NCBI GenBank assembly: GCA_030645295.1
Contig: JAUSMG010000466.1
Span: 1-42,751, forward strand
Length of the DNA: 42,751 nt
Source of the DNA: Saprospiraceae bacterium
Lineage (GTDB): Bacteria > Bacteroidota > Bacteroidia > Chitinophagales > Saprospiraceae
Direction: 5' to 3'
Shown one piece after another: positions 7,411 to 41,982 of the stretch. Position 1 is the first letter of the stretch. Each line of letters begins with the position of its first letter. Position numbers and translations under genes: made by a program. The notes beneath the pieces were generated by a model. The model searched no databases. It was not told where the DNA came from and saw only the letters and a list, made by a program, of their open reading frames with translations.

Positions 7411-7439
7411 TTGAAGGTAAAACTTTCCCGCTACCTTGC
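7411..7439 (+). promoter_or_regulatory. Weak candidate promoter of the FG-GAP protein gene
   Basis: TTG at 7411-7413, then 18 bp, then TACCTTGC at 7432-7439, a two-mismatch version of TAnnTTTG. A start near 7445 would leave about 23 nt of leader before the ATG at 7468. The rest of the 210-bp divergent gap shows no gene. Confidence 0.3.
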
Positions 7440-7467
7440 AGTCCGTTTTTCCATCCTTTATTTGAAA

Positions 7468-10329
7468 ATGAAAAGATTAACAACCCTCCTACTGCTTTCT
7501 ATCTCGTTTTTTATAAACATTTCAGCACAAATTAGTTTCTCCAACAAAACCAACCTGCTTACGCCTACCAATCATTTTAGTGGCGTGGCCATTGCCATTC
7601 TTGACATGAATGGCGACGGGCTGGACGACATCGCCCGGCTAAGTCAGGGCACCGCCCTTAACATACAGTACCAAACTACGCCCAATCAAGCATTCACTGC
7701 TACGGGCATGACCCCGCTCCCCGGAACCAGTGATACCTGGGGAATGTGCGCCGCTGATGTAAACAATGATGGTTTCGGCGATGTGCTGGCTGGCGGATTT
7801 TACAATGGGATAAAAATTGCCCGCTCTAATGCCAATGGCACCTTTAGTATTCAAAACCTCACAACCCCCAGCACCTTTGTACAAGGCGTGAATTTTGCTG
7901 ACATTAACAACGACGGCTGGTTGGATGCCTTCGTTTGCCATGACGATGAAGTATCGCGTATTTTTGGCAACAATGGCGATGGAACTTTCAGCTACCAGCC
8001 CAATTGGATCGACCTGGCAACCTCCCCCGCTTCTGATAACTCAGGCAACTACGGCTCGGTGTGGAGTGACGTGAACAACGATGGACATCTGGACCTCTAC
8101 ATCGCACACTGCAGGCAAGGTATTAATAGCGCCAGTGATCCCCGCCGCATCAACCAACTTTTCCTGAACAACGGCAATGGCACCTACACCCAAGACCTCA
8201 GCAACACTTCCGGCCTGCGCATCGGAGCGCAAAGCTGGACTGCCGATTTTGGTGACATTGACAACGACGGTGATTTTGACTGCTTCATTACGAACCACGA
8301 TGTGAACTGCCAACTGCTTGAAAATGATGGCAGTGGTCATTTCACTGACATCACCGTAACGTCTGGTTTTATGGGTGCAATACAAGGTTTGCCCATCCAA
8401 GGGGTGTTTCGTGATTTCGACAACGACGGCTTTACAGATATCATCTTAGCAGGCGATCAGCACTATATTTTTCGGAACCATGGCGACAAAAGCTTCTCTG
8501 CTGTCCCGAATCCTTTTGGCAACAATGAGGTGGAATCTTTCGCTATTGGCGATCTGAATGGAGACGGTTTTCAGGACGTTTATGCAGGGTATGCACTGGT
8601 ATACACCGACCCATCCACAATCCCGGATGCGCTTTGGATGAACAATGGAAACGGGAACCATTTCTTTGCACTCAATTTGCGTGGCCAGCAAAGCAACCGC
8701 AGCGGGGTGGGTGCAAAAGTCCACTTGTACTCATCCCTCGGTATCCAAACCCGCGAGGTACGTTCCGGAGAAAGTTATGGCATCAGCAATTCGCTGCAAA
8801 TCCACTTTGGTATGAGCCAGGTCACCCAAATAGATTCTGTTGTGGTCCATTGGCCTTCCGGCGTACGCGATGTACTGGCTCAACCCCTTGTAGATCAATA
8901 TATTACAGTTAATGAAGGCGGCTGTATTACACCCGCAGTTTCTCTCCTGGCTGATGGGCCAACCACACTTTGTGCCGGACAAAGTGTGTCAATCGGTACA
9001 GTCGCTGCATTCGACCATTACCTGTGGAATACCGGGGATACCACGTCTACTATCCTCGCTACCATTACGGGCATTTACAACGTAACCATTACCAATTCGG
9101 AAGGCTGTACGGCGGTTTCTAATTCAATTCCTGTCCAATTCGACCCGATTCAAATCCCAATTATTCAGGCCTTAGGCGACACCACTTTTTGTACTGGCGG
9201 GGAAGTCGTGCTGAGTGCTTCGGAAGCATCCAGTTACCTCTGGAGCACGGGGGATACCACCCAAAGCATAGCAGTAAGCCAGAGTGGCCAATATTCTGTG
9301 GCCACCCAGGGACTTTGTGCGATGTTCAACTCCGTCCCCACCAGCATCCAGGTGCTCGCTGCACCCTTGCCTACGGTAATGCCTGACACTGTTCTGGTGG
9401 GAGAATCCGCAACACTTATCGCCAGTGGCGATCAATTGTCGTGGTATGCAACAGAAAACGCTCAGATCAATCTGGCAGTAAATGATACCCTTGTCACCCC
9501 TGCACTCACCGAGACCACTACGTATTGGCTCAGCAATACTTCCGTCTATGGTGTCCCGAATGATTTTGTAGGAATGGTGAACCACCAAGGCTCAGCCTTG
9601 AGTGATAATAGTTACAATGGTGGGTTGATTTTCGATTGTTTTGAACCCTTCATTTTGCTAAAAACGAAAGTCATAACTTCCGTAGCCGGCGAGCGCAAAA
9701 TTGAACTCCGCACCCCCAATGGAGATGTTATACTGAGTAAAATTGTAAATATCGGGACAGGAACAACGGTTATTGACCTGGATTTCGACGTGCCAATGGG
9801 TACCGATTTTCTGCTTACTACCGACGAAACATTCAACGAAAGTAGCATTGGATCTTCTAGTCCACAATTGCGCCGGAGCAGCCAGGGCTGTGATTTTCCT
9901 TATGAAATTCCGGGCGTGGTGAGCGTCAAGAATTCGACCTTCAACACGGAACGCTACTACTATTTTTACAACTGGGAAGTAGGTTTTTATGGTTACGAAT
10001 GTACCAGCGAGCGCGTGCCTGTGACGGTGGTCGTGAATGAGCCCAGCGGTATTACGCCTTTACCCGCCTGGGCTGCCGGACTGCGCATCTTCCCCAACCC
10101 GACTGCCTCCTCCCTAAATCTTGATATTCAGGGATTTGCGGGGGGCGATCTTTTGGTAACGGTTAAAAATTCGCAGGGCCAAACACTCCAAACCCGCAGC
10201 TTCAATGTTCCAATGGGTGACGCAGCCTTTACCACTGACTTAAGCCATTTCGCTGCTGGAATCTACTGGATTGAATTGTCCAGTGAGGGTGGTGTGGCAC
10301 AGCGGAGGGTGCTTTTGCATCAGAAGTGA
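7468..10329 (+). CDS. Secreted FG-GAP/VCBS beta-propeller protein with ASPIC/UnbV domain and T9SS type A sorting domain
   Basis: A 953-residue exported protein. The start at 7468 gives an immediate signal peptide (MKRLTTLLLLSISFFINISAQ), so the 19 in-frame residues upstream are excluded. Seven calcium-binding FG-GAP/VCBS motifs can be read in series: DMNGDGLDD, DVNNDGFGD, DINNDGWLD, DVNNDGHLD, DIDNDGDFD, DFDNDGFTD and DLNGDGFQD, consistent with a seven-bladed propeller. An ASPIC/UnbV domain follows (around GVGAKVHLYSS and VVVHWPSGVRD), then two Ig-like repeats with YLWNTGDTT and YLWSTGDTT cores. The C-terminus (LRIFPNPTASSLNLDI to RRVLLHQK) is a type A sorting domain. It is likely a surface adhesion or binding protein; the ligand is unknown. 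Confidence 0.92.
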   Translation: MKRLTTLLLLSISFFINISAQISFSNKTNLLTPTNHFSGVAIAILDMNGDGLDDIARLSQGTALNIQYQTTPNQAFTATGMTPLPGTSDTWGMCAADVNNDGFGDVLAGGFYNGIKIARSNANGTFSIQNLTTPSTFVQGVNFADINNDGWLDAFVCHDDEVSRIFGNNGDGTFSYQPNWIDLATSPASDNSGNYGSVWSDVNNDGHLDLYIAHCRQGINSASDPRRINQLFLNNGNGTYTQDLSNTSGLRIGAQSWTADFGDIDNDGDFDCFITNHDVNCQLLENDGSGHFTDITVTSGFMGAIQGLPIQGVFRDFDNDGFTDIILAGDQHYIFRNHGDKSFSAVPNPFGNNEVESFAIGDLNGDGFQDVYAGYALVYTDPSTIPDALWMNNGNGNHFFALNLRGQQSNRSGVGAKVHLYSSLGIQTREVRSGESYGISNSLQIHFGMSQVTQIDSVVVHWPSGVRDVLAQPLVDQYITVNEGGCITPAVSLLADGPTTLCAGQSVSIGTVAAFDHYLWNTGDTTSTILATITGIYNVTITNSEGCTAVSNSIPVQFDPIQIPIIQALGDTTFCTGGEVVLSASEASSYLWSTGDTTQSIAVSQSGQYSVATQGLCAMFNSVPTSIQVLAAPLPTVMPDTVLVGESATLIASGDQLSWYATENAQINLAVNDTLVTPALTETTTYWLSNTSVYGVPNDFVGMVNHQGSALSDNSYNGGLIFDCFEPFILLKTKVITSVAGERKIELRTPNGDVILSKIVNIGTGTTVIDLDFDVPMGTDFLLTTDETFNESSIGSSSPQLRRSSQGCDFPYEIPGVVSVKNSTFNTERYYYFYNWEVGFYGYECTSERVPVTVVVNEPSGITPLPAWAAGLRIFPNPTASSLNLDIQGFAGGDLLVTVKNSQGQTLQTRSFNVPMGDAAFTTDLSHFAAGIYWIELSSEGGVAQRRVLLHQK

Positions 10330-11499: not shown

Positions 11500-11985
11500 T
11501 TAAAAGTCATTCCCAATCGTGATCTCCACCACTTCGAATTCCAGCGAGCCTCCCGGAGTAGTAACTTTAGCGATCTCGCCCCTGATTTTGCCCAGCAGCC
11601 CCTGGCCGATTGGCGAGGTGACGGAAATTTTCATCAGTTTCGCATCAGCTTCGGTTTCCGACACCAGTTTGTAGGTCATTTCCTTCCCGGTTTTGAGATT
11701 TTTGATGGTTACATTGGAAAGGATAGCCACTTTGGAATCATCCAGAAGGCTTTCGTCGATGATGCGGGCCGTGGAGAGCACGGTCTCCATTTCGCTGATT
11801 TTAAGTTCGAGCAAACCTTGGGCCTCTTTGGCTGCGTCGTATTCCGCATTTTCCGAAAGATCGCCTTGCGCGCGGGCTTCTGCGATGGCGTGCGCAGCCT
11901 CTCGCCGACCGTTGGATTTTAGTTCCTCCAGATCCGTTTTCAGCTTGTCGTAGCCTCCCTGTGTCAGGTATGTGTAGTTTGACAT
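11500..11985 (-). CDS. greA: Transcription elongation factor GreA
   Basis: A 161-residue protein covering the whole GreA family. It binds the RNA polymerase secondary channel and stimulates cleavage of backtracked RNA. The N-terminal coiled coil ends in the conserved acidic tip GDLSENAEYDAAKEAQ (residues 41-56), with D42 and E45 as the catalytic acids. The C-terminal globular domain carries the SPIGQGLLGK motif near residue 127. The start at 11985 (MSNYTYLTQGGYDKL) agrees with the family. It is preceded by the terminator of the PorV-like gene, so it probably has its own promoter; a TACCTTGG at 12046-12053 on this strand is a weak candidate. Confidence 0.97.
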   Translation of the reverse strand: MSNYTYLTQGGYDKLKTDLEELKSNGRREAAHAIAEARAQGDLSENAEYDAAKEAQGLLELKISEMETVLSTARIIDESLLDDSKVAILSNVTIKNLKTGKEMTYKLVSETEADAKLMKISVTSPIGQGLLGKIRGEIAKVTTPGGSLEFEVVEITIGNDF

Positions 11986-12077: not shown

Positions 12078-12118
12078 AAAAAAACAGAAACGTCCTTGCC
12101 GGGTGGACAAGAACGTTC
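12078..12118 (-). terminator. Intrinsic terminator after the PorV-like gene
   Basis: Reading leftward, an AACGTTCTTGTCC / GGCAAGGACGTT hairpin (12104-12116 with 12088-12100) is followed within a few bases by seven T (12084-12078). It closes the TonB/exoprotein/PorV-like unit and separates it from greA. A second GC-rich inverted repeat (12042-12047 with 12063-12068) lies just beyond, in the greA leader. Confidence 0.75.
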
Positions 12119-12191
12119 CTGCAATAAACTTGGCACAAAGGTATGGGCAGTTTAGGGAAAGATAAAAGCCCCCTGCCTATATTTCTTAATT

Positions 12192-13232
12192 TTAGAACTC
12201 CAGACGGAGGCCCAGGTTGTGAATTCCATCGAAAACCTTCGTTTGACGGTATCCGTAGTCCAATGCGATCCGGGTGTCAGAACCCTTACGGACAGGAATT
12301 GCAAAGCTCAGGCCACCACTGATGCCATTGTCGATAGTTTCTTCAGCCGTTGGGGCATCCAGCTCAATTTTGTAACCTAAGCGAAGGGAAAAGTTTTTGA
12401 GGACAGACAGCTCCACACCTCCGCCCAACTGGTCGCGGGAAAATGCGTTGGAAGTAAAGTTACCCATCAAAGTAAGACGGTTCTGTTTGCCCAAAAGCCA
12501 ATCGTAAGCAGCGCCAATGTTGAGTTGTGAAGGCAACTCATACGCCGTAGCACGTTCGTAATAGGTGTTATTGTAGCTAATTGGACCAGGATTGGGCAAT
12601 TGTTTAGAAAGACCCTCTCCCGAAAAACGCATCTTGGAACCAACATTACGCAGCGAGATACCAAACTTGAAATTGTCGTTCTCACCAGTTACATATTGTA
12701 CGCCTGCATCAAGTGCAAAAGCGCGGGCCCCAGCGTTGCTGATGGACTCGTTGACCAATTTAGCAGTTACCCCTACCGATACTTTGTTTTCGAAAAGGTG
12801 CGCGTAAGATAAGCCCATATTGAAGTAGGTAGGGCTGAATGTGGCCCCGGATCCTTCAGGATTTTCTGTGGTGGTAAATTCGAATTCACCAAGGTCCATG
12901 GCAACGAGGCTTATTCCAAAAACACCTCCGCCTTTGCCCACTGGCTGCGCGAAACCTATCGCATTGAGGTTGATATCAGCGATGTAACGGGTATGACCCA
13001 ACTGGATCTGTGATCCGCTAACCCGTGAAAGGCCCGCCACGTTAAGGTACATTGCTTCAGGTCCTACCGTGTTGGCAGTATTCATAGCATGGAGACCCGC
13101 GCAACGTGCCCAAGGGTTGATAATGAGTTGGTTAGCACCTGCTTCCCCCTGACGGTCGGGGTTGCCCGCTAATGCAACGCCAGTGCCTAAAAAGGCTGAA
13201 AAAGCGAGCAACAATGTGTATTTTCTATTCAT
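12192..13232 (-). CDS. PorV/PorQ-family outer membrane beta-barrel protein
   Basis: A 346-residue protein with a signal peptide (MNRKYTLLLAFSAFLGTGVALA). The N-terminal region is typical of PorV/PorQ proteins: LIINPWARCAGLHAMNTAN and YLNVAGLSR, followed by alternating amphipathic strands and a terminal aromatic residue (LGLRLEF). This FadL-like family includes PorV, which carries T9SS cargo from the translocon to the surface attachment complex. Here it is the last gene behind a TonB receptor and a very large exoprotein. I infer that it is the dedicated outer membrane partner of that exoprotein. Whether it is the genome's main PorV cannot be told from this window. Confidence 0.82.
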   Translation of the reverse strand: MNRKYTLLLAFSAFLGTGVALAGNPDRQGEAGANQLIINPWARCAGLHAMNTANTVGPEAMYLNVAGLSRVSGSQIQLGHTRYIADINLNAIGFAQPVGKGGGVFGISLVAMDLGEFEFTTTENPEGSGATFSPTYFNMGLSYAHLFENKVSVGVTAKLVNESISNAGARAFALDAGVQYVTGENDNFKFGISLRNVGSKMRFSGEGLSKQLPNPGPISYNNTYYERATAYELPSQLNIGAAYDWLLGKQNRLTLMGNFTSNAFSRDQLGGGVELSVLKNFSLRLGYKIELDAPTAEETIDNGISGGLSFAIPVRKGSDTRIALDYGYRQTKVFDGIHNLGLRLEF

Positions 13233-13280
13233 GACAGATGAATGAGTGTGTGAGTTAAGAAGGTTAATAAAGGTTGATGG

Positions 13281-13354
13281 AGGTTTATGAAGGTTGAGAA
13301 TTGAGCCAAAAACAATTTCTATATACTAACTCAATCATCAATCCTCATAAACCT
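13281..13354. repeat. Imperfect inverted repeat between exoprotein and PorV-like genes
   Basis: Arms 13281-13305 and 13330-13354 (25 nt each) pair with about five mismatches around a 24-nt loop. The arms resemble the GGTTGAG-rich motif found again at 23220-23280. It fills much of the 155-bp gap. There is no T-run on the transcribed strand, so it is more likely an mRNA-stabilising or attenuating structure than a full terminator. Confidence 0.5.
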
Positions 13355-13387
13355 GCACCTACCCTTATCCACTGGAAAACGGCTACG

Positions 13388-16300
13388 TTACAGCCCCGAT
13401 GGGTCGTATTGCCGCCCTATGCCAAACCACTTGAGGGTTCGCTCGCCCATGTCGGGCGCCTTAATATGCACCAAATAAACACCGCTGGCAACGGGGATGC
13501 CTTTATTGTTTTTCAAATCCCACTCGATGGCGGGCGAGATCTGATCGTAAGGCATGTACACTTCGTCACGGATATACTGCCGAATGAACTTCCCATCCAG
13601 TGAGTAGATCGTCACGGTACACTTCCCGGGCAGGTTGGTGATCTTTACGGTATTGGTGAACTGTGAAGACTCATATTCTGAGAATCCATAGTACGGGTTT
13701 GGCACCATTTTCACCGAATCAAGTGCGTTGTCAATGGCCACTTCCGTCAATGAGGATGGCTCACGACCTTCGATCTTAAAGAGGTATTTCGGGTGACCTG
13801 TACGCCATGGCTTGCCGGCAGCGTCGACAGGATTGCTCTCGTCGTACCAGGTTTGGTAAGCATTGTCTACCCGAAGTTTGATGCGTGTATCGTTCGGAAT
13901 GAGGCCCTCGCTGAGCGGTTTCATCCTGAAGCCTGTTGCCAGTTGAAGCATTCCCGCCCAAGCGATCTTGCCCACTTGCTGCACTTTAAGTGCCGCTGCG
14001 CCAAACTCAGGCGTAATACGCTTTCGAAGTTGGTTGCAGGAGTCATAACGGGTGTTCATCACATAGATCCAGTGATGACCGCCCAACACTGCACCGCCCC
14101 AATAATTTGGAAGTTCAGGATCAGTGAATTGATCCGTTGGATTCCAAAGCATGTCACGGCCAGTGAAATTCGGGTCGAGCGCGGAGCTAAAGCCGGAGTT
14201 CTCACCAAAGAAAATATTGAGTCTCTGACCCGTCTCTACGTCCACGGCATAGCCTGGGAACCAACCCATACCATACACAGGTTGACCCTGGAAACTGGCG
14301 GGAATACCCTGGTTGGCAGGTGCAGTGGAAGGATACAATTCACCATCCGGATCAGGCAAACCATCCCCATTGGCATCGTTCTTTCCAACGGAGAGGGAGT
14401 AGCGCGTATCGAACATCAAACGGCCCTTGCTGCCATTGTTCTGTGTTCTAACAACGCCTGTATCGCGTGTGAATGCTCTTGCAGCAGTTTCTATCACGAC
14501 GCAGCGACTCCATTTAGATTTGTCGCTGGTCAGCACGATGTCCACGTTGGGCAATTCACCAAGCTTCTTTTTCCGGTCACCCACAGCTGCCTGATTCAGG
14601 CCGTTCGTCCAGGCAGGCGTTATCACGTCGAATTCTGTAGCATCCGTATCCCAGTCCGCCAGCACATACGGTACGAACCAGCCTTCGCCCAGGGTACTCA
14701 AGCCTTGTTTTGGATCGAGTATTTCATCTTCCTCCAAGGCGCCCGTTTTCACAAAATTGAAGAATGGATTGCCAAAAATATCGTCAGACCAACCAAATAA
14801 CCATGCGTCATTTGGATTGGAATACTCCACTTCTGCACCAATACCCCCGTTACTATCATCATCTTTGTTGCCGGGTTCAATGGTTTGGGCAATGGTTATG
14901 GAGAATCCATATTCCAAAATGATCTGTTCATTGAGTTTTGCAATGGTCTTTTCCGCTCTGATCAACGCTCCGTCAGGAAGTTTGCGCAATTCCCAACGAG
15001 CGGTATCGTCCAATTTTGTGTCCGACAGGTTGCCATCCACAAATTTGAGCTCATACTCACCATCTTTTATCTCAAACGGATTGAATACGGTAACGGTAAG
15101 CGGTCCACGGCCCGGCTCGTAAGTCAAGGTACTGTCGAAGTCACTATTGAGCACGCGATTTCGGGTATTTTCGTCCATATCCAGGAAATTACCGCCTGCA
15201 CCCTGACCTTCCAAACGGGTGATGACCACGCCTTCACCATAAACGGTATTCAGCGATTGATCTACGATGGGTCGCGGTATTACCGTTTTGATCTCGATAT
15301 TCCGGCGACCTGCCAGGAAGGGGCGTTGCTGCCCGGTCACTGGCTGCGCGAAGGGATCAAGTGGTCCAAAACTGTTGTATGCATACGCGAGCACCGAGAA
15401 GTAGTACTTCTTGTGATTGATAAGCCTTTTGTCGTTGCCACTGGCAAATCTATCCTCCGTGATGCTGAACGTATGGCGGATGCCCTTATCGGCTCCATCA
15501 ACCTGTAGTACAGGATAATATACTTTTTTGTCCGTGGCTGGATCGCGCGTTTCTACCCAGTTGTATAACTTTTTAACGCCATTTTTGATATCCACCTGAT
15601 ACACCAGACGACCTTTTTCAGGGTTGCTGTAATCTTTGGCAGAAACGTTCTCGTCCTTCAACTGATAGATCAGGTAGCCTTCGAACTTGTAGTAAGCCGA
15701 ATCTCTTACCAATGGATCTGGATGGTCTTTGTAATAGTCCGGAGCAAGGAAGTCCAACTGCTGATAATCTTCATTTTCCTTGTCAAAGTTATTGGACTCG
15801 GGATAAGGCTTGTTTGTGAGTACAACCACCACTTCTTTGTTCAATTCGATCCAGTCGGCAGTAGGCGCATCCGGACCATCCAACAATTCAAAACAGTTGT
15901 CAAAAAGACCCTGTGCGAGTTTGTCAGCACGGAAGAGGTTCTCCATATCTGGACATGGATATTCAATGTCCGGTACCCAAGGCACACCGATGATCAGTTC
16001 GTTTACCGCACCTGGCTTCAGGGTGAATGGGCCTGATGCCTGCAAAGTACGGCGGTCGCCCAAAGGCAGGTTGGCCGTACACATGCTCCAGCCCGTTTGA
16101 TCGTTTGGTGGCTCGGTGAAACAGTAGCGGACACGTTGTGCCGTAGGATTTCCGGGAGAGTAACCGCTGCCGCCATAAGTAAGCGGAGTGCCATCAGCCC
16201 AGGTACCTGTGATGTAGTTGTAATACTGATTCGGAGCAGAAGGGTCTCCCTGACCGCCTCCACCACGATTGTAATACATAAAAGAATTCATGCCCAATTC

Positions 16301-17431
16301 ATATTCCTCGTCTTCTCCCATAGAATCGAGCCTAACTCCCAATGGACCGCGGAAATAGTCTACACCAAGCAATGGAATGTTGGAACCATAAGTAGCAGCG
16401 CCACTTGGGCAGGTAGCCCCAGGATTGCCGTCTGTCTGGTCCTGATTGTAGATGTACATCAAACTTTTGGCTGTATCGCAACCAATGTAATCATCTTCGT
16501 CACAGCCAAGATCCGGGTCGATCCACATTGCAAAGAACATCGAGTCAATGCGGTCTTTAGCGCGGTTGATCAGCTTGTAACGCTGAAAGGTCATGTCATT
16601 CAACTCATCGTTGGTCGTGTAGCCGAATGCCTGCACCTGCACCTCCATCTGAATGGGGTCGCCGGTAGTCTTGGCATGCGCCTGGCCACCACCGTGGTCG
16701 TTGTACACCCAATAGATCATCTCGTCAGGATACTTGTCGAGCGGACATCCCCGGATTTCGATAGAAGGGTAGTCGCCCTCGAGCGGCTCATAGGTACCAA
16801 TGGTCGGGCCTACATCATAGAAGCCTGCAAGGGCCTGGTCGGTAAAAGGCAGGTCAAAGCCCCAAACAGACTGAAAATATTCATTGCCTTTGGAAGGCCA
16901 ACCTTTAATGTTGCGGGGAATGTCGTTTTCATTAAGATTGCCTTTGGCGATATTGGCCAGGTGCTTGCGGATATCATCACCGGTCACACGGAAGTGACGG
17001 TCCCAGTTGGCACAGGTAAATGATTCAGTGACACCCGCCAACGAGATCGGGCCAGGCCAGAAATCGTTTTTGCCGTCGCTGCGATAATCCTGGCAGGCGA
17101 GTTTGAGGTTATTACCCGGGTCAATACCACCCAGCCAAACTGCACCTGCAAAAATAGACGACACTTCTGGCTGACCAGAAGCCGGATCCACTTTTGGCAC
17201 GATATAGCGCCCTCTGCTCAAGTCCCACCAACAGTCGCCACCACCCAGAAGTCGGGCGCGAACGTTGTTGATCGCCTGGTCAATGGCACTCTCAGAGTTG
17301 GCGCAAAGGTCACGGTATTGCGCTTTTTTGATGGTTCTCGGAGCATTTTTCCGACCATCCGGCTCACGGGCTTCAAGGCCCCAAGTCCCCAAAGCCAGCA
17401 AGGCTATTATCCAAAATCTATTTATACGCAT
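13388..17431 (-). CDS. Very large exported protein of a TonB/PorV-linked family, FlgD-like C-terminal domain
   Basis: A 1347-residue protein with a signal peptide (MRINRFWIIALLALGTWGLEA). The N-terminal part contains YIVPKVDPASGQPEVSSIFA and AVWLGGIDPGNNLKLACQ; many Trp/Gly/Asp-rich segments follow and no catalytic motif is recognised. The last about 110 residues (VPNPYYGFSEYESSQF, VKITNLPGKCTVTIYSLDGKF, PVASGVYLVHIKAP) form an FlgD/T9SS-type A-like beta-sandwich. It continues past the usual basic end to finish GIGRQYDPSGL, which is atypical. The gene lies 75 bp after the TonB receptor and is followed by the PorV-like gene. Export by T9SS is the best inference; a surface scaffold or binding role is possible. 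The function is unknown. Confidence 0.8.
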   Translation of the reverse strand: MRINRFWIIALLALGTWGLEAREPDGRKNAPRTIKKAQYRDLCANSESAIDQAINNVRARLLGGGDCWWDLSRGRYIVPKVDPASGQPEVSSIFAGAVWLGGIDPGNNLKLACQDYRSDGKNDFWPGPISLAGVTESFTCANWDRHFRVTGDDIRKHLANIAKGNLNENDIPRNIKGWPSKGNEYFQSVWGFDLPFTDQALAGFYDVGPTIGTYEPLEGDYPSIEIRGCPLDKYPDEMIYWVYNDHGGGQAHAKTTGDPIQMEVQVQAFGYTTNDELNDMTFQRYKLINRAKDRIDSMFFAMWIDPDLGCDEDDYIGCDTAKSLMYIYNQDQTDGNPGATCPSGAATYGSNIPLLGVDYFRGPLGVRLDSMGEDEEYELGMNSFMYYNRGGGGQGDPSAPNQYYNYITGTWADGTPLTYGGSGYSPGNPTAQRVRYCFTEPPNDQTGWSMCTANLPLGDRRTLQASGPFTLKPGAVNELIIGVPWVPDIEYPCPDMENLFRADKLAQGLFDNCFELLDGPDAPTADWIELNKEVVVVLTNKPYPESNNFDKENEDYQQLDFLAPDYYKDHPDPLVRDSAYYKFEGYLIYQLKDENVSAKDYSNPEKGRLVYQVDIKNGVKKLYNWVETRDPATDKKVYYPVLQVDGADKGIRHTFSITEDRFASGNDKRLINHKKYYFSVLAYAYNSFGPLDPFAQPVTGQQRPFLAGRRNIEIKTVIPRPIVDQSLNTVYGEGVVITRLEGQGAGGNFLDMDENTRNRVLNSDFDSTLTYEPGRGPLTVTVFNPFEIKDGEYELKFVDGNLSDTKLDDTARWELRKLPDGALIRAEKTIAKLNEQIILEYGFSITIAQTIEPGNKDDDSNGGIGAEVEYSNPNDAWLFGWSDDIFGNPFFNFVKTGALEEDEILDPKQGLSTLGEGWFVPYVLADWDTDATEFDVITPAWTNGLNQAAVGDRKKKLGELPNVDIVLTSDKSKWSRCVVIETAARAFTRDTGVVRTQNNGSKGRLMFDTRYSLSVGKNDANGDGLPDPDGELYPSTAPANQGIPASFQGQPVYGMGWFPGYAVDVETGQRLNIFFGENSGFSSALDPNFTGRDMLWNPTDQFTDPELPNYWGGAVLGGHHWIYVMNTRYDSCNQLRKRITPEFGAAALKVQQVGKIAWAGMLQLATGFRMKPLSEGLIPNDTRIKLRVDNAYQTWYDESNPVDAAGKPWRTGHPKYLFKIEGREPSSLTEVAIDNALDSVKMVPNPYYGFSEYESSQFTNTVKITNLPGKCTVTIYSLDGKFIRQYIRDEVYMPYDQISPAIEWDLKNNKGIPVASGVYLVHIKAPDMGERTLKWFGIGRQYDPSGL

Positions 17432-17462
17432 GGTAATTGTGTTTTTAATTTTTAAAAGGGCT

Positions 17463-17497
17463 AGGGTTTGACCAATTCTATTAAAAAGTCAAACCCT
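17463..17497. repeat. Perfect 10-bp hairpin between TonB receptor and exoprotein genes
   Basis: AGGGTTTGAC (17463-17472) is the exact reverse complement of 17488-17497, with a 15-nt loop. It occupies the 75-bp gap inside the presumed operon. On the transcribed strand only a short TTTT follows, so partial termination or RNA processing to set the receptor:exoprotein ratio is plausible. Confidence 0.55.
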
Positions 17498-17506
17498 TCC
17501 CGGAAT

Positions 17507-20500
17507 TTAGAATATCAAAGAAGCCCCGATGAAAATACGGCGTGGCTGTGCAAAATTGTTTGGGTTGCGCACCAGCCAGGAGTAAGAATCTATGTAGGCT
17601 TGTTTGTCCAGACCAATGAGTTCCACTTCGCGAATTTCCGAAAGGCCGTCCGTATAAGAAAGGAAGCCATCATCCGTTGGTGAACCGGTAGCACGGTACA
17701 CGCTTACCACGTTGAGGCGGTTTAGTACGTTGGCTACACGCAGGTAGACATTGGCCTCCAGCGGAGTCTTGGCTTTTGGATTCAGGCGGAAGGTCTTGTC
17801 CACCCGCAAATCCACGTTAAAGCGCCAAGGCAGGCGGCTGCCATTGATGGCGCCTACAGTACCCAGTGCGTCAAAACGGGATGGTCTCAGTTTGGCCGTA
17901 TATGGGCGGCCCGAAGCTGCATTGATAAGCAGGTTAACGCCAAAGTTTTCCAGGATCTTCTTTCCGTTGATGATCGGACCGGTGTAAGCTTTTCCAGCGT
18001 CATAACGATAATCGATCGTGGTGCTCAGGTTGTGGCGCTCATCAAAGTTGAGCGGGAATAAGTAACGGATGTTGCCACGGTTGGTAAGGTTACTTTGTGA
18101 TTCTGCATCCGAACCGGTACCATCTGCAAACTGCAAGGTATAGGCAATGCGCACTTCCGTATTTTTTGTACGGCGCAGGTCATACTGCCAGGTAAAGCCT
18201 TTTACAGTACCAAAGTCTTCGTTGCCATAAGTATCGTAGTTGCCGATAACCGGTACATAAAGAATGGTACGGCGCTGGATCATGTCGCGGAATTCTCGGT
18301 AGTAAGCCGAAAATTTGATGGCCGAACGCTTGTTAAGTTCCTGTTGGAAGCCCACTTCATAGTCCACCACGCGCTCCGGACGAAGGTTTGCATTGTTCTT
18401 AGTGCCAGGGCGGTAGAAGTAGAAGTAGTTACGAGGCGTTACTTCCCAGTTGCTCGGCGGGCGCTGCACCAAAATGTCATAGTGCGCAAAGAAGTTGGCT
18501 TTTTCCGAGATCGGGAACGAGAACGCCAGACGTGGCAACCAGTTCACTTGTGGAGTGTAGTCGTCAAAAGAACCATTTGGATCAAAATCCGGTGTTGTGA
18601 TATCGTCATTTGGGTTGAGCAGATATGGGTTCACCACACCGCCACCAAAGATGACATTACCGTCGTTGGCCTGGCGACCATCAGGGAAATACCAGGTGTT
18701 TTCGTCACGGTAAGCTGTTACTGTTACATCCTGCTCGCTCACGGTGTATACTTTGAAATCATCCTCAATGGTATTCGGACGTTGCTCGCCAGTAGGTACG
18801 GTCGCAAAGAAGGTCTTTGCGTCCATTACTTTGTACAGCGAGAACTGGTCCTGCAATACTTTGGTATTCAGGTCAAAGCGCTCTACACGCACACCAAGGC
18901 TGAAGATCATTTTGTTGAACGTGAACTTATCCTTCAACCAGGCAGCCTGGTACAGCGGGCGCAATGGCGCATTGGGAAAGTTACGGACGTTGTCGATATC
19001 CCGGCTGGTAAAGAAGTCGTTGAATGTAATGCCGTCTCCGGTCTTATCGCCTTTGTAATCATAGCCATAATAGCTAACGAGACCCTGGTCCATCAGCTCC
19101 CGTGGCGCAAACATCGAAATATCCAACTGACTTGGGTCCAGCGCATTTACGTTCACCCACTCATTGAGCGGCAAGCCGAGCGATTTGCGGATCTCACGAT
19201 AAAACCGGTTCTCCGGCAGATCTACCGTTGCATACGGGTGCAATGGAACATCAATGCCGGGAGGGTCAAAAAATTTATACCCAATGGTATCGGTTTTATC
19301 CAGGCCATTGAAATGGATATTGGCGTATTGATTGGCCCAGAGATACAGTTGGTTTGGGTTTACACGATAATATCGATTGGTGCGCTGTTCATTGAGCAGA
19401 CCGAACTGGATGTTGTGCGTACCACTGTTACCCAATCTTAAGTCAAAACTTACAGTAGCATTGAGGGTTGCAATGTCATTCTCATTCTTCTCATAACGGT
19501 TGTAGGACATGCCGATATTGGAGTACATCCCATCCCAGACATCGTCAAACACCTGAGTGAACTCACCATTTCTTGCGAAGTAGGTCAAAAGGGCAGGAAA
19601 CTGCGACGTGCGAATGGTTTCTTCATCTTTGATCGCAAATTCATTGTAATTTTCAAGCACCGGGTTTTGAGTTCCTGGCTCATAGCCTACAAAAAGGTCA
19701 TTATAGCCTACGTTTTCCCAGACACCAAGATCATTGGGTTCGGCGATCGCGTCTTGTTCCGTGTAGAATTTACCGATGTAGCCATAGTCAAACAGACGGT
19801 CTTCGTGGCGTTTGTCGTAGGTCTTGAACAGACTGCGTTCAAAAGCAAACTGCAAAGTGTAGTTGGCGTTGCTGATGGCAACACGCTTGCTGCTTGCCGC
19901 ATCCTGGCTTGGCTCAGAATTGCCAAGACGGTGACGGAAACGGAAATTTCCGCGGTAGGTATTTCTGTACTCAGTAGGGTTGTTCTGTGCGTTCAGGATG
20001 GACCAGGTAGGCCGACCCGTTTCGTCGCCGCCATCCACCAGATTACGGCCATCTGTGAAAGTTCCCGTTAAGCTGACGTCAATATTATTGGAAAGGCGCA
20101 GGTCGATCTTTCCGTTGAGGTCAAGGTTGGTAGCTGCCTGAAAAGGCCGTGCTTCCAATGCATCGACATCTTTGTTGGTGAGGTAGGATGCACTGCTGAT
20201 AAAATTGGGGCCCAAACGGCGCATTGGGTGCTGTTCGAGTTCGTCCAGCACACTTTGTTTCGCCCGGTAAACCGGCAATGCTGCGGGATCATCTTCGTCG
20301 CGGGTCAGGTATTGACCTGAAAGCCTGAAACCCAATACTGTACGGCTTTTGCCGTCGGGCAATTTTTTCCTGATCAGCGGACCACTGACGTTGGCAGTAG
20401 CCAGCAGATAGCCAAAAGCATCCAGGCCTTTCGAGTTTTCAACGTCGATACCGCCGTGAAATTCGCCTGCCGGACCTTTAGTAGTACCAGACACGATACC

Positions 20501-21133
20501 ACCGGTCACGTCGCCGATTTCAGCGCCCAGGCCGCTGGTAATTACCTGCAACTGCTCCAGATCCTGTACCGGCGGAATACCACCTGAAACCCGGATACCG
20601 TCAATGTAGTAGTCGGTACCGTTGGCGCGCGCGCCCTTGATGTTCACGTCCCCACCATCGATCGAGGAGGCGCCCACTGTGGTCGCCACGATGGTGTTCA
20701 CACTACGGGTTGGAAGATTTTTGATCTGATCGGAGGTCAGCGTTTGACCACTCGATGTTTGGTCTTGCTGGATAAGCGGGACTTTGTAGCCAACTATTTC
20801 GATTTCATCCAGCAATGTAGAACTAGACATTACCACATTTTGTGTTGTGATCTGTCCTCCAAGCACCCGGATCCCCGTGATACGTTGGGTTTGAGAACCA
20901 GTAAAGGCGAATTCTACATCGTAGGTTCCCGGATCAAGTGGAATACGGTAGTCGCCGTTGTAATCCGTGATAGAGCCACGCACGAAATCTGTGCCCCTTG
21001 AGACTTTCACGGTCGCCCCTATCAGTGCTTCTTTGCCATCGGTTATATTGCCCGTCAACACCGTTGACTGAGCATATGCGACGGCAGCACCTAGCAGGAG
21101 CATCGCAAATGTTAATAGTAAAGAACGTACCAT
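17507..21133 (-). CDS. TonB-dependent outer membrane receptor with CarboxypepD-regulatory N-terminal domain
   Basis: A 1208-residue receptor. The signal peptide (MVRSLLLTFAMLLLGAAVAYAQ) is followed by a carboxypeptidase-regulatory-like domain at residues about 25-105 (GNITDGKEALIGATVKVSRG, YNGDYRIPLDPGTYDVEF). A TonB-box-like stretch DEIEIVGYKVPL comes next, then a plug domain (LTSDQIKNLPTRSVNTIVA, VNIKGARANGTDYYIDGIRV). The rest is a long beta-barrel ending IFIGASLIF, with the C-terminal Phe required for BAM insertion. This is the SusC/OmpA-regulatory architecture common in Bacteroidota, but no SusD-like lipoprotein follows. The next two genes encode the large exoprotein and the PorV-like protein instead. 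It starts only 19 bp after the dehydrogenase stop, so cotranscription is likely. The substrate is unknown. Confidence 0.92.
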   Translation of the reverse strand: MVRSLLLTFAMLLLGAAVAYAQSTVLTGNITDGKEALIGATVKVSRGTDFVRGSITDYNGDYRIPLDPGTYDVEFAFTGSQTQRITGIRVLGGQITTQNVVMSSSTLLDEIEIVGYKVPLIQQDQTSSGQTLTSDQIKNLPTRSVNTIVATTVGASSIDGGDVNIKGARANGTDYYIDGIRVSGGIPPVQDLEQLQVITSGLGAEIGDVTGGIVSGTTKGPAGEFHGGIDVENSKGLDAFGYLLATANVSGPLIRKKLPDGKSRTVLGFRLSGQYLTRDEDDPAALPVYRAKQSVLDELEQHPMRRLGPNFISSASYLTNKDVDALEARPFQAATNLDLNGKIDLRLSNNIDVSLTGTFTDGRNLVDGGDETGRPTWSILNAQNNPTEYRNTYRGNFRFRHRLGNSEPSQDAASSKRVAISNANYTLQFAFERSLFKTYDKRHEDRLFDYGYIGKFYTEQDAIAEPNDLGVWENVGYNDLFVGYEPGTQNPVLENYNEFAIKDEETIRTSQFPALLTYFARNGEFTQVFDDVWDGMYSNIGMSYNRYEKNENDIATLNATVSFDLRLGNSGTHNIQFGLLNEQRTNRYYRVNPNQLYLWANQYANIHFNGLDKTDTIGYKFFDPPGIDVPLHPYATVDLPENRFYREIRKSLGLPLNEWVNVNALDPSQLDISMFAPRELMDQGLVSYYGYDYKGDKTGDGITFNDFFTSRDIDNVRNFPNAPLRPLYQAAWLKDKFTFNKMIFSLGVRVERFDLNTKVLQDQFSLYKVMDAKTFFATVPTGEQRPNTIEDDFKVYTVSEQDVTVTAYRDENTWYFPDGRQANDGNVIFGGGVVNPYLLNPNDDITTPDFDPNGSFDDYTPQVNWLPRLAFSFPISEKANFFAHYDILVQRPPSNWEVTPRNYFYFYRPGTKNNANLRPERVVDYEVGFQQELNKRSAIKFSAYYREFRDMIQRRTILYVPVIGNYDTYGNEDFGTVKGFTWQYDLRRTKNTEVRIAYTLQFADGTGSDAESQSNLTNRGNIRYLFPLNFDERHNLSTTIDYRYDAGKAYTGPIINGKKILENFGVNLLINAASGRPYTAKLRPSRFDALGTVGAINGSRLPWRFNVDLRVDKTFRLNPKAKTPLEANVYLRVANVLNRLNVVSVYRATGSPTDDGFLSYTDGLSEIREVELIGLDKQAYIDSYSWLVRNPNNFAQPRRIFIGASLIF

Positions 21134-21152: not shown

Positions 21153-22097
21153 TTACTTGTTAGGTTTGACGATTATTTTATCCAAAAGAACTTCTGCCAG
21201 TCGCCGCTTCGATTCATGTGTCCAGCCAGCCACATGGGGCGAAAGAACTACGTTTTCGAAAAGATGCAAGCGCTTATAAAGCACATTTTCATTTTTTGTG
21301 AATGTGGGAGGCTTCTCGTTCTCAAACACATCCAGGCAGGCTCCTCCAACTTGTCCTGATTCCAAAGCCTCCACCAGATCTTTTGTTTGCACACATTTCC
21401 CCCGGGCCGTATTGATCAACACAAAACCTTTTTTACAATTCTGGAAAAACCGTGCATCTGCATACGCCCGGGTCTCCTCTGTCAGTGGCAAATGTAAACT
21501 TATGATGTCTGCCCGTTCCTGAATTTCCTCCAAACTTACTTCCTGCACCCAGGACATTTCTTCTGAAAATCCATTTGCCTTGTATTTATCAAAAGCCAAA
21601 ACCTCCATTTCCATTCCTGCCAATTTTCGGGCGAATTGACTGCCTGTATGCCCAAAACCTATGATACCCAGCACTTTACCTTTTAGTTCCCAGCCCCGGT
21701 TTGCCTCTCGCCGCCAAATGTTCTGGCGCAGTTCCCGGTCGGCGCGGAGGAGATTGTTTGCCAAAACGAGCAGCATCCCCAGGGCTTGTTCTGCTACTGC
21801 ATTTCGGTTTCCTTCCGGGCTGCTCCAAACATGCACTCCTCGTTTTGCTGCATATTCTCGATCCACAATTTCCATCCCTGAGCCTAATCGAGCCACAAAA
21901 CGCAATTTCACCGCCGCATCTATAAAGTCCCGGTTCACTAAAATCTTGCTGTTGATCACCAGCCCTTCGTAGTCTGCAATGATTTCGCGCGTTTTTTCCG
22001 GGGTGATGTCTGGCAAGTAATCGCAACGCCAACCCTTTTGTTCAAGCCCCTCTTTTAAGATCGGGTGGCAATCGTCTGTAATTAGCACGCTTCCCAT
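21153..22097 (-). CDS. D-isomer-specific 2-hydroxyacid dehydrogenase (phosphoglycerate dehydrogenase-like)
   Basis: A 314-residue NAD-dependent oxidoreductase. The Rossmann loop is GFGHTG (G147, G149, G152) and D170 at the end of the next strand points to NAD rather than NADP. The catalytic triad is readable: R232 in NTARGKC, E261 in DVFENEK and H288 in SPHVAGW. It resembles short SerA-type phosphoglycerate dehydrogenases without the ACT domain, which make 3-phosphohydroxypyruvate for serine synthesis, but no serC or serB is nearby. The frame stays open to 22325. I chose 22097 because MGSVLITDDCHPILKEGL begins where the family begins; a TATCTTTG at 22294-22301 leaves a longer form starting at 22265 possible. 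Confidence 0.85.
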   Translation of the reverse strand: MGSVLITDDCHPILKEGLEQKGWRCDYLPDITPEKTREIIADYEGLVINSKILVNRDFIDAAVKLRFVARLGSGMEIVDREYAAKRGVHVWSSPEGNRNAVAEQALGMLLVLANNLLRADRELRQNIWRREANRGWELKGKVLGIIGFGHTGSQFARKLAGMEMEVLAFDKYKANGFSEEMSWVQEVSLEEIQERADIISLHLPLTEETRAYADARFFQNCKKGFVLINTARGKCVQTKDLVEALESGQVGGACLDVFENEKPPTFTKNENVLYKRLHLFENVVLSPHVAGWTHESKRRLAEVLLDKIIVKPNK

Positions 22098-22218
22098 TTC
22101 GAGGTTACATTTAACAAGGTCGAAAATAGACCCCCTCATTATAGTGTTTTCGGCGGAATGTGTGAATGGCAACTCTGGAAGGGCGAACGATACGCCCCGG
22201 TTCGTAAAAGAAGTTGGC

Positions 22219-22241
22219 ATTTCCGCTTTATCTGCGGAAAT
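22219..22241. promoter_or_regulatory. 8-bp inverted repeat in a divergent intergenic region
   Basis: ATTTCCGC and its exact reverse complement (22219-22226 and 22234-22241) flank a 7-nt spacer in the 217-bp region between the divergent dehydrogenase and small exported-protein genes. It could be an operator or a leader hairpin; no regulator gene is adjacent. Confidence 0.35.
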
Positions 22242-22293
22242 TTGCACCCTCCAAGTTTCTTCCATCAACTTCAGCCTTTCGCCCGACAAGCGG

Positions 22294-22301
22294 CAAAGAT
22301 A
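22294..22301 (-). promoter_or_regulatory. Candidate -7 element for the dehydrogenase/TonB unit
   Basis: TATCTTTG on the minus strand matches TAnnTTTG exactly. I see no well-spaced TTG upstream of it. A start near 22287 would leave about 190 nt of leader to the chosen ATG, or about 22 nt to an alternative ATG at 22265. Confidence 0.35.
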
Positions 22302-22314
22302 TTCAGACAAGTAT

Positions 22315-22977
22315 ATGAAGCACATCTTTTTTTCAATTCTGACAGTATTGGCTTTTTGTCATTGTCAAACCCCCGCTCCTACACCCAAAAACATCCTCAA
22401 CTGCTATGCGCGTTTTGATGCAGCTGGCCGAATGGTTAAAGCCGAGGCTACTCTGATGGACAGCGCTACCCGGAAAATCATCGAAATACCGGGAGGACTG
22501 CGTTTCCAATCTACCGAAATGAAGATCCGGCCAGTGCAGGGCATCACCTATACAGCAGAGTTCCCGGCTGCGTACACCGCCGAGCAGGTCTTTGAATGGA
22601 AAAATAAAAAAGGAGAAAAGGGCGAATTCAAACTCGGCATCCCGTCTATTGATTCTTTTTATTTTGACACCAAGGTACTTTCGGTCACCAATCCGGCCAT
22701 CCTCCAATGGATCGGAAAGCCGCTTGGCAAAGGGGAAACGCTCGTTTTTATCTGGGAAAATTCCGCTGAAGGACGGACTCAACCAATGGAGGTCAGCACG
22801 ACACTGGGTGCGCCACTCATCGAAATTCCGGCAGCCAAACTGGCGCAGATAGGTCCCGGCAATTGGTCCCTCTATCTGGTGCGAAAACGCATGGCGAGGG
22901 CTGAAGTCACCGATTTTTGGGTAGAAAGCACGTCGGAGTACTATACCCGGCCGATTTCTGTGCGGGTTGAGGAGTGA
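22315..22977 (+). CDS. Small exported protein, possibly a lipoprotein, of unknown function
   Basis: A 220-residue protein. The start at 22315 places a hydrophobic signal directly at the N-terminus (MKHIFFSILTVLAFCHC) followed by a Pro/Thr linker. Cysteines at 15 and 17 make a lipoprotein possible, but neither context (LAFC, FCHC) is a canonical lipobox. The mature part reads as a two-sheet beta-rich protein (TYTAEFPAAYTAEQVFEW, LVFIWENSAEG, WSLYLVRKRMARAEVTDFWV) without catalytic signatures. It is divergent from the dehydrogenase gene and convergent with the Ig-like lipoprotein gene, so context gives no function. Confidence 0.75.
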   Translation: MKHIFFSILTVLAFCHCQTPAPTPKNILNCYARFDAAGRMVKAEATLMDSATRKIIEIPGGLRFQSTEMKIRPVQGITYTAEFPAAYTAEQVFEWKNKKGEKGEFKLGIPSIDSFYFDTKVLSVTNPAILQWIGKPLGKGETLVFIWENSAEGRTQPMEVSTTLGAPLIEIPAAKLAQIGPGNWSLYLVRKRMARAEVTDFWVESTSEYYTRPISVRVEE

Positions 22978-35186: not shown

Positions 35187-38100
35187 TTACCGCTGTAATG
35201 TCACATCTCCGGTAAACAGCTCTTCTTTTCCATCCGCAAACAGCACGGTTGCCTGCCAGATGAACACTGCCGGGTTCAAGTTTTGACCTTTAAAGGTTCC
35301 GTCCCAGCCAATGTTCGTGTCGATGGGTGAAAAATCTTTCCGTTCAAACACCTGTTCTCCCCAGCGCGAATACACCTGCAGGGATTTTATCCGTTCCACC
35401 GACACCGGGTCGGCAAAGATGGTAAACTCATCGTTGGTGCCGTCCTCGTTTGGTGAAAAGATATTGGGGGCGTAGATCTTACGCGTCTTGTCGACCGTGA
35501 GCAACAGGCTGCCCCGGGCCTCGCAACCTGCCTTCGATATTACCAATAATTGATAGTTTGTTGTGTTATCCGGCATAGCCCCCGTATTCAAACACGTATC
35601 GCACTCCAAGCCTGTTGAAGGGGTCCAATTGATGGAAGCGATGTCGGAAGGAGGAATATTCACCGTCGCATCGATCTGGTAATTTTCTCCGAGGCCAATC
35701 TCAGCTGTTGGCACGAGTGAAATTACCACCAGATCAGGCGCTTCCACGACCACAACCGTTGTTGCATTACAGCCATTTCCACCTTGGACTTCCACGGTGT
35801 AGGTACCCGGGGCAAGGTTAGTAAACTGATTTTGTACACTCGGCAGACTGTTGTTCAGACTGTACAAAATTGGGTCCGACAAACCAGTCACGGAATCAAT
35901 ATGCACCGTACCCTGCAATTCCTGGCAGGTAGGCTGCTGTACGGAAGCAAAAGCCACCGGAACCTCCGGATCGATCGTTACGGCATCTGTATCGGTACAG
36001 CCATTGGCCGGATTGGTCACGAGCAATTGGTACGTTCCTGCTTCGTCAATCAGCGGGTTGGCAGTCATAGCGCCTGAGACAAAATGGCCATCCTGGGTGG
36101 TCCAGGAATAGGTCAGGTTTGGCGCACCCGAACCACTGCCATTGAGGCCGGCGGTTTCGCCCGCACAATCCACGGTAAAAGGAGCGCCCGCATTTGCGGT
36201 TGGCGGGGCTATATCGGCAGTGACGTTCACTGGAATACCGTTTGCACAGTTATTGGCCGGGTTCAGGCCGAGCAGGTAATACGTGCCCGCGGTGGAAACC
36301 GGAAATGTTGTTCCACTGCCCAAAATCGTGGTATCCGTTCCAATAATGGTTGCCCAGCTGAACTGAACTCCACCCACAGTCGAACTACCCGTCAGTGTTT
36401 GCAAAGGGTTAGAACAGGTCAACAGTGCAGGATTTGCGACGGAGAGGGTCGGTGGGTTCAGATTTTGAGTGATGGTAATACTGGCTGTTGCTGTACAGAA
36501 GGTCACGTCGTCCGATACCACCAACACATATTGGCCGGGGGCGTTCACCATAAGGCTACTGCCGCTGCCAACCGGGTTGCCGTTGTTCAGCCATTGTAAT
36601 GTGCTGGGGTTGGCGGTCCCTGTCACCGTTCCATTGAGGGTAGTGGATATCGTACTACAATCCAATGCAGTGGTATTCGCAGCAATGCTGGCCTGTGGTT
36701 GAGTCGTCTGGTCGGCGATCACAAAACTGGCCGTATTGGTGCAGGCTCCGCCACCGTTCACGGTCACGGTGTACGTGCCCGGGGCAAGGTTCGAAAGGTC
36801 CTCTGTTATTGCCGCGTTCGACCAGATAAAGGTATAGCCGGTGGCTGGGCCGACTACCAGATCAATGGCCCCGTTGTTGGTTGCACAGGAATTGTCGGCA
36901 GTAGGAGTACCGCTGATCAGAGGGGATATCCCGTTGTCAGGAACCGTAAAATTCCCCGTTGATGTGCAGCCGTTGGCCGCAGTTACGGTCACGGTGAACT
37001 GTCCTGAAACAATGTTCAAAAGGTCTTCTGAAGTAGCCGCGTTCGACCAGCTAAATCCGTAGGGCGCAGGGCTTCCGGTCACACTCAGGTCTATGCTGCC
37101 GTTCGCTTGACCGCAAGTTGCCGCCACGATGTTGTTGGAAAGTGAGGGAACTGGCACATTGCTCGTCACGGTAAAATTGGCGGTACCAGTGCAAGCGCCT
37201 CCGCCGTTCACCGTCACGGTGTATGTTCCTGCAGCAATGTTTAACAAATCCTCCGTAATGGCCGCGTTCGACCATAGGAAGGTGTAGCCTGTTGCCGGGC
37301 CGACGGTCAAATCAATTGCCCCGTTATTTACGACACACGAAGTTGCGGCCGTGAGGGTACCATTGATCTGAGGGAGGATCACATTTTCCGGAACGGTATA
37401 ATTCCCTACCGAGCTGCAGCCATTGGCGGCTGTTACGGTCACGGTAAATGTCCCGGAAACGGTGTTGGAAAGGTCTTCCGTTGTGGCTGCATTCGACCAA
37501 ATGAAATCGTAAGGTGCTACGCTTCCCATGACGCTCAGGTCGATGCTCCCGTTTACCTGCCCGCAGGTAGCGGCTGCAATATTGTTGGAAATGCTTGGCA
37601 GTGGAACGTTGCTTGGCACCATAAGGACCGCAGTGCTGCTACAGGCGCCTCCTGCGCTTACCGTCACCGTGTAAATCCCCGCCGCTATATTGGCCAGGTC
37701 TTCTGTAATGGCGGCATTCGACCATAAATAGGTGTAGGTTCCGGCAGGGGTTATCGTCAAATCGATGGCCCCGTTGTTGACCGTACAGGAACTCGCAGGA
37801 CTGAGCGCGCTGCCGATGGCTGGGGAAAATGAGTTCTCCGGTACTGTGTAATTTTCGACGGTGCTGCAGCCGTTGGCGGCCGTCACCGTGACCGTATAGT
37901 TCCCCGAAAGGATACCGTTAAGGTCTTCACCCATGGCGGCGTTTGACCAGTCGAACTGGTAGGGCGCAGGACTTCCCGACACAGTCAAATCAATAGCGCC
38001 ACTGGCCTGACCGCAAGAAGCCGCCGTAATGTTTTGGGCGAGCAATGGTGTGGGGACATTACTGGTTATGGTAAATGCTGCTGTATTGGTGCAATTGCCG

Positions 38101-41879: not shown

Positions 41880-41982
41880 AGTACAAATAGGTTTTGTGTG
41901 ACCTCTCAAATACTTTCTGGGAAGTGCATTGCGATGATCAGCGGACTGGATCGGGGAAACTTGTTCGACAAAGATAAGAATG

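Follow-up and report, generated by a model that had tools for sequence, protein, structure and literature searches.

What does a TonB-dependent receptor (TBDR) do in an operon together with a giant exported protein and an outer-membrane barrel, and without a SusD? This question is raised by a locus of a Saprospiraceae bacterium (assembly GCA_030645295.1), which lies in the window analyzed here, a stretch of 42,751 nt (contig JAUSMG010000466.1, positions 1 to 42,751, forward strand). On the minus strand the TBDR gene is followed by the gene of a large exoprotein and then by that of a barrel of the PorV/PorQ family (Table 1). The intergenic gaps in the open reading frame list are 75 and 155 bp and an intrinsic terminator closes the row, just as the first-pass annotation of this DNA had described; the terminator has a stem of 17 pairs. 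Here, we show by computation that the three genes form a conserved unit and that their products diverge together. On balance, we favor the reading that the operon encodes a receptor-partner unit, in which an exoprotein exported by the type IX secretion system (T9SS) would be retained by a barrel of its own and act as the SusD-like surface partner of the TBDR.

The gene unit is well conserved among relatives. Exoprotein relatives were found in 55 of the 60 genomes compared (own genome included) and in 44 of the 46 with good completeness; most of these genomes have one full-length match and some have two. The triplet lies on one strand and in the same order in all 20 loci from the order, 15 of which come from other families; this count includes L046, where the exoprotein reading frame falls into three pieces and the contig ends within the TBDR gene. 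The greA gene follows the triplet in 19 of the 20 loci, and in L048 it stands behind a second exoprotein gene. In named genomes, represented by the best 80 of at least 584 relatives, mostly Saprospiraceae, the full triplet is present at 70 loci. Six more are cut by contig ends and four are neither, namely L133, where the copy selected was a second exoprotein gene, L175 and L182 with broken frames, and L185, where the exoprotein stands alone. Carriers include Neolewinella, Lewinella, Membranihabitans and Saprospira grandis DSM 2844. In L048 (11456-15487), L133 and L158 the barrel gene is followed by another full-length exoprotein gene.

Conservation reaches far beyond the order. A profile of the exoprotein finds matches in 198 genomes out of 392 from the phylum, a count that includes the genome of the window. 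Positives make up 187 of the 287 genomes from outside the class. Within the class, 5 of the 85 genomes that belong to other orders are positive, three of them only at E values of about 1e-6. Some weak positives may rest on the C-terminal domain; with a profile of the N-terminal part 9 of 10 checked genomes stay positive, and among the weak G101, G123 and G237 only G123 is lost. Outside the class the triplet with short gaps was found in 37 of 39 loci, one per genome and picked non-randomly from the better matches among the positives; among these triplets, L083 has its receptor truncated at a contig end, and the receptor of L093 is spread over two overlapping frames. The first-pass annotation had proposed that the triplet is one module, and had set an inspection of the neighborhood in related genomes beforehand as the first of two tests that could refute this. 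We ran this comparison, and the neighborhood is conserved in the order, in the named genomes and outside the class.

Paralogous copies give a second view of the unit. At E<=1e-5, fragments included, 11 Bacteroidia genomes have 1-5 PorV-family matches, compared with 4-19 in 11 genomes from outside the class, 10 of which have 11-19 matches to the PorV/PorQ family. In two single-contig genomes from outside the class, 19 of the 31 walked PorV-family loci are triplets (9 of 16 in G190, 10 of 15 in G088), two of them with an additional gene inside. G190 has 19 PorV-family matches, and two fragments of 28 bits were left out of the walk. Each of the two genomes has one further locus in which the exoprotein gene lies upstream of that of the receptor instead of behind it; since this permuted order occurs in two different families, a second conserved layout may exist. 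One walked locus in each genome is a PorU-PorV pair, and the other eight loci are without a receptor. Distances between the paralogues agree among all partners. In G190 (n=10) the correlation is r=0.77 for receptor and barrel, 0.68 for C-terminal domain and barrel, and 0.63 for receptor and C-terminal domain; the respective values in G088 (n=11) are 0.81, 0.60 and 0.73. All have p<0.001 (5000 permutations), and distances of the remainder of the exoprotein are in agreement too. The tests include the permuted loci L203 and L226, where the exoproteins are cut by the locus end. Thus, the triplet is inherited and diverges as a unit.

What kind of protein is the exoprotein? A Pfam scan matched no domain, and a sequence search of solved structures at E<=1 returned no match for either the exoprotein or the barrel. 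It qualifies as T9SS cargo in the wide sense, with an Ig-like C-terminal domain of the T9SS kind, a signal peptide judged by eye and SprA encoded in the genome. On the domain models its C-terminus gives weak matches. It reaches 26.9 bits on the PorZ model NF052228 (cut-off 260, C-terminal domain only), 17.7 bits on the PorU model (cut-off 420) and 13.9 bits on the type A model TIGR04183 (cut-off 23), and thus fails all three. Among 40 members of the wider exoprotein family TIGR04183 matches 39 at E<=0.1 and the PorZ model 36. The type B model TIGR04131 is absent from the matches of the window exoprotein and of these 40 members, and CHU_C, which we take to be the type B domain, gives weak matches in three of the 40. 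For the window exoprotein PorZ is the best match of the C-terminal domain in both the structure and the sequence comparison. Four stand-alone cargo proteins that share the N-terminal part of the exoprotein carry ordinary type A domains over the cut-off, PorZ is not among their matches, and no partner gene directly adjoins them. The exoprotein does not look like a lipoprotein, as its first cysteine is residue 43. A loose lipobox pattern matches 3 of 73 and 6 of 39 exoprotein relatives, and in the three of these that we looked at the cysteine falls behind the apparent cleavage site.

Export of the exoprotein by the T9SS is further supported by the distribution of SprA. SprA is found in 320 of the 392 genomes, in 198 of 198 that are exoprotein-positive versus 122 of 194 that are negative. 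This co-occurrence is explained in part by shared ancestry.

The barrel belongs to the PorV family in the broad sense. It passes NF033709 PorV_fam with 143 bits (cut-off 90) and PF19572 with 27.6 bits (cut-off 27), and fails the PorV equivalog NF033710 (57.9 bits, cut-off 250), the PorQ equivalog NF033711 (80.3 bits, cut-off 220) and the PorP family model (16.3 bits, cut-off 90.55). The first-pass annotation had called it PorV-like; the family assignment stands, while PorV itself is not what it resembles most, since its score is higher on PorQ. The same genome encodes its own PorU-PorV pair on another contig, with 1199 bits for PorU and 487.7 bits on NF033710 for PorV, and has six PorV-family matches. 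Because of this pair, the further family matches and SprA, the barrel is an extra member of the PorV/PorQ family that is nearer to PorQ than to PorV. A dedicated barrel of this family next to one T9SS-type cargo and one TBDR, as had been proposed, is thus borne out. The proposal went on to a self-contained export, anchoring or uptake complex. Anchoring plus uptake is the part we retain as the best reading; given the PorU-PorV pair and SprA in the genome, export most likely goes via the common T9SS and is not self-contained.

We therefore picture the following pathway. The exoprotein would leave the cytoplasm by Sec and cross the outer membrane through the general T9SS channel SprA by means of its C-terminal domain. 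The dedicated barrel would collect it at SprA and stay bound, in the way that PorQ holds PorZ and that has been proposed for PorP/SprF and type B cargo. The bound C-terminal domain would escape cleavage, so that the barrel becomes a lasting membrane anchor. That this domain is retained and uncleaved is suggested by its nearness to PorZ, and retention on the barrel is what we infer from this analogy.

The barrel might instead be a dedicated shuttle and nothing else. The exoprotein would then pass from SprA to the attachment complex, PorU would cleave its C-terminal domain, the protein would end up linked to lipopolysaccharide or free, and the receptor would merely be co-regulated. PorU and PorV are indeed present in the genome of the window, and type B shuttles are required to secrete their cognate cargo (PMC12618676; this and the other papers cited by PMC number were covered in part, and our statements refer to those parts). 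We consider this explanation unlikely, since the C-terminal domain resembles that of PorZ, which is retained, more than it does ordinary type A domains, and the receptor is kept with the exoprotein-barrel pair in nearly all loci and diverges with it.

The receptor and the exposed part of the exoprotein bear on what a retained exoprotein would do. The TBDR is over the cut-off for CarboxypepD_reg and Plug in the Pfam scan. It had been described as SusC-style, which holds for the domain layout only: the SusC/RagA model TIGR04056 does not match it at E<=0.1, and matches 4 of 20 of its orthologues at E<=0.01, a value that stems from an E-value listing without the cut-off status. The N-terminal domain of the exoprotein has, over its length in the predicted structure, the fold of the N-terminal domains of glucoamylases, glycoside phosphorylases and GH116 enzymes. 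Glucoamylases form glycoside hydrolase (GH) family 15. As to the catalytic helical barrel that would follow this domain in a carbohydrate-active enzyme, there are few helices in either model of the exoprotein, and the middle part (about 720-1225), to which no fold is assigned, is hardly covered by the structure searches. In the receptor-partner reading the large exposed part, with the carbohydrate-enzyme-fold domain leading, would lie over or beside the co-encoded TBDR and would capture the ligand of the TBDR or hand it over. This is the job of SusD for SusC, with a protein barrel replacing the lipid anchor. The contact between exoprotein and receptor and the class of the ligand are likewise suggested by inference.

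The triplet could also be a unit of envelope biogenesis or a T9SS accessory without any role in nutrient uptake, with a PorF-like receptor, or with the exoprotein as a canopy like that in the barrel assembly machinery (BAM) of Bacteroidota. PorF is a TBDR reported as a T9SS component, and PorV of Cytophaga hutchinsonii co-precipitated a PorF-related TBDR (PMC8564354); BamG, a barrel of the FadL family, has a surface protein bound to it (PMC12611786). The unit is near-universal in the genus group, usually with one full-length exoprotein per genome, and sits between serA and greA, which speaks for such a role. Against it, the roughly ten divergent copies per walked genome suit many ligands better than one housekeeping task, and no exoprotein match was found in any of the 14 listed genomes of family f20 from the same order; SprA gives a strong match in 13 of them and a marginal one in the other (G327). 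We hold such a role to be slightly more doubtful than that of a mere shuttle. A link to the newly described BAM complex was considered because BamG is a FadL-family barrel and was dropped as the best reading, as the covered parts of PMC12611786 and PMC12578637 hold no unit of TBDR, cargo with C-terminal domain and barrel.

Surface redox chemistry, or the handling of metal or haem that the receptor would move, seems improbable. In 8 of 38 loci outside the class, the gene immediately after that of the barrel encodes a tetratricopeptide repeat (TPR) protein with seven CXXCH motifs (three such proteins were scanned; the neighbor count covers L082-L119 and leaves out L120). In the other 30 loci such a gene is not the direct neighbor, CXXCH occurs at most once in any frame of the window, and the N-terminal domain of the exoprotein is carbohydrate-enzyme-like. 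That the genes are neighbors without joint function, their old order near serA and greA having persisted by chance, is very improbable, because the three genes stay together and co-diverge in paralogous copies elsewhere in the genome, even though such old synteny exists, as the SerA gene upstream of the triplet in 10 of the 38 loci outside the class indicates for the serA-triplet order.

Within the receptor-partner unit, the end of the exoprotein is a candidate contact site. No block of the protein is better conserved than its last 47 residues (0.74); L163, one of the 85 non-redundant sequences, is missing from A5 and A6. The very tail is RQFDPSGL-like in Saprospirales and KKRVQLNTF- or QEQQILDRF-like elsewhere. 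It ends in F, Y or L in 37 of 37 triplet exoproteins outside the class and in K in the 3 of 3 complete partnerless exoproteins there; in Saprospirales 68 of 71 exoproteins with both neighbors end in L, F or Y. These counts refer to exoproteins of more than 500 aa and more than 100 bits, and the rows L098 and L111 from outside the class are cut by the locus end. The tail is specific to this orthologue group, and paralogous triplets mostly have the usual basic ends. The monomer model gives the tail low confidence despite its conservation, which fits a peptide that would fold on a partner. The second exoprotein copies of L128 and L158 are without the tail, and those of L048 and L133 as well as the lone exoprotein of L185 keep it. 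The tail as a strict mark of an own barrel was therefore dropped, as these last three loci do not fit strictly.

Table 1. Features of the locus and of the related loci discussed in the text (pLDDT, predicted local distance difference test; window positions refer to the 42,751-nt stretch).
Feature	Sequence	Position	Strand	Remarks
TonB-dependent receptor	window	17507..21133	-	1208 aa; CarboxypepD_reg and plug; signal peptide judged by eye
Exoprotein	window	13388..17431	-	1347 aa; signal peptide by eye; T9SS-type C-terminal domain
Exoprotein N-terminal domain	window	15887..17311	-	residues about 41-515; predicted fold of glycoside-phosphorylase/glucoamylase N-terminal domains
Exoprotein C-terminal domain	window	13412..13747	-	residues about 1229-1340; PorZ-like Ig fold
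Exoprotein C-terminal tail	window	13391..13429	-	residues 1335-1347, ending RQYDPSGL; conserved; low pLDDT in monomer model
PorV/PorQ-family outer-membrane barrel	window	12192..13232	-	346 aa
Intrinsic terminator at operon end	window	12084..12122	-	17-pair stem and six T
SerA-like D-2-hydroxyacid dehydrogenase	window	21153..22097	-	possible fourth gene of the message
greA	window	11500..11985	-	conserved downstream neighbor past the terminator; outside the module
Stand-alone T9SS cargo with exoprotein N-terminal part	L240	1270-4119
Stand-alone T9SS cargo with exoprotein N-terminal part	L241	4558-6255
Stand-alone T9SS cargo with exoprotein N-terminal part	L242	5794-7497
Stand-alone T9SS cargo with exoprotein N-terminal part	L243	7694-9433
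CXXCH TPR gene directly behind barrel gene	L084, L086, L089, L093, L095, L096, L097, L112
Permuted order exoprotein-x-x-receptor-barrel	L203, L226			two different families

At the borders of the operon, the stem of the terminator stands out against the 5-6 pairs of the other nine terminator-like sites of the region, and the stretch folds with a z-score of -3.87; the total of 10 such sites is not above the shuffled expectation (12.9). Upstream, the SerA-like gene ends 19 bp before the start of the TBDR, and hence the transcript may hold four genes, with serA possibly sharing the message of the triplet. The open frame of serA spans 21153-22325, and near relatives begin at its residue 77. Rfam and tRNA scans of the window gave no matches. 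Near the module, at 7411-10329 on the plus strand, the window encodes a type A cargo of the T9SS with FG-GAP and ASPIC/UnbV repeats, an ordinary protein with a C-terminal domain of this kind. An open frame of 2240 aa lies at 35187-41909 on the minus strand.

We also put forward a wider proposal, to which we give somewhat less than an even chance. The unit might represent a separate class of TonB-dependent uptake, in which the SusD lipoprotein is replaced by a barrel-held, T9SS-exported protein with an uncleaved C-terminal domain. Such a class would date back to the ancestor of the phylum, number about ten units in each genome of lineages outside Bacteroidia like the two walked, and persist as a core unit in Saprospirales. 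If this is true, much of the phylum depends for nutrient uptake on the T9SS, a system usually associated with the export of enzymes, adhesins and virulence factors. The large number of PorV/PorQ-family matches in genomes outside the class would be easier to explain, and a large unnamed family of proteins would gain a function. Type A C-terminal domains are stated to be all recognized by the PorV shuttle (PMC12618676), and this rule of one shuttle for type A signals would be broken. Finally, natural cargo-barrel pairs would make the sorting of T9SS cargo, between release and lasting anchoring, testable.

How does the unit relate to known systems? The triplet is not described in the parts covered of PMC12611786, PMC12578637, PMC12618676, PMC9143113, PMC10994853, PMC10202324 and PMC8564354, and a literature search that covered neither preprints nor most subscription papers gave no description of it or of a TBDR-linked type A-like version. 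Bacteroidota BAM, with BamG and BamH (PMC12611786, PMC12578637), resembles it in that a FadL-family barrel holds a surface protein; BamH, however, is a lipoprotein, the complex is built on BamA, and the parts covered mention no cargo with a C-terminal domain and no TBDR. In PorZ-PorQ and PorU-PorV (PMC10202324) a retained C-terminal domain is held by a PorV/PorQ-family barrel, as would be the case here, and porU and porV adjoin in the genome of the window, in G190 and in G088. In contrast to these pairs, the exoprotein is neither PorZ nor PorU, has another N-terminal part and comes with a TBDR. The SusCD systems share with the triplet that the gene of a TBDR with CarboxypepD_reg adjoins that of a large surface partner, and that outside the class several paralogous units occur per genome. 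The partner here, however, resembles T9SS cargo without a lipobox, its presumed anchor is a protein barrel, the TBDR is unmatched by TIGR04056 and a SusD is missing from the triplet.

The closest parallel is found in the cognate pairs of type B cargo and PorP/SprF barrels, some with PorE (PMC12618676, PMC9143113). There the cargo gene is commonly followed by that of its own FadL-family barrel, which is proposed as an anchor, and in some cases an OmpA-type protein takes part, PorE being the partner of PorP. In L043 (10270-12036), L044 (3781-5937) and L045 (3786-5936) the barrel is itself fused to OmpA-type peptidoglycan-binding domains, confirmed by a domain scan for L043 and L044; by analogy with the proposal for PorP-PorE (PMC9143113), such a fusion would tie the unit to the peptidoglycan. 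Since the known cognate pairs consist of type B cargo and PorP/SprF barrels, the unit would thus be their type A-like counterpart with a receptor added. Cognate barrels are already known for type B cargo and for PorZ, and the TBDR-linked type A-like version would be the new part. It is set apart from the type B pairs by a type A/PorZ-like cargo domain, by a barrel of the PorV/PorQ family and by a TBDR that comes first in nearly all loci.
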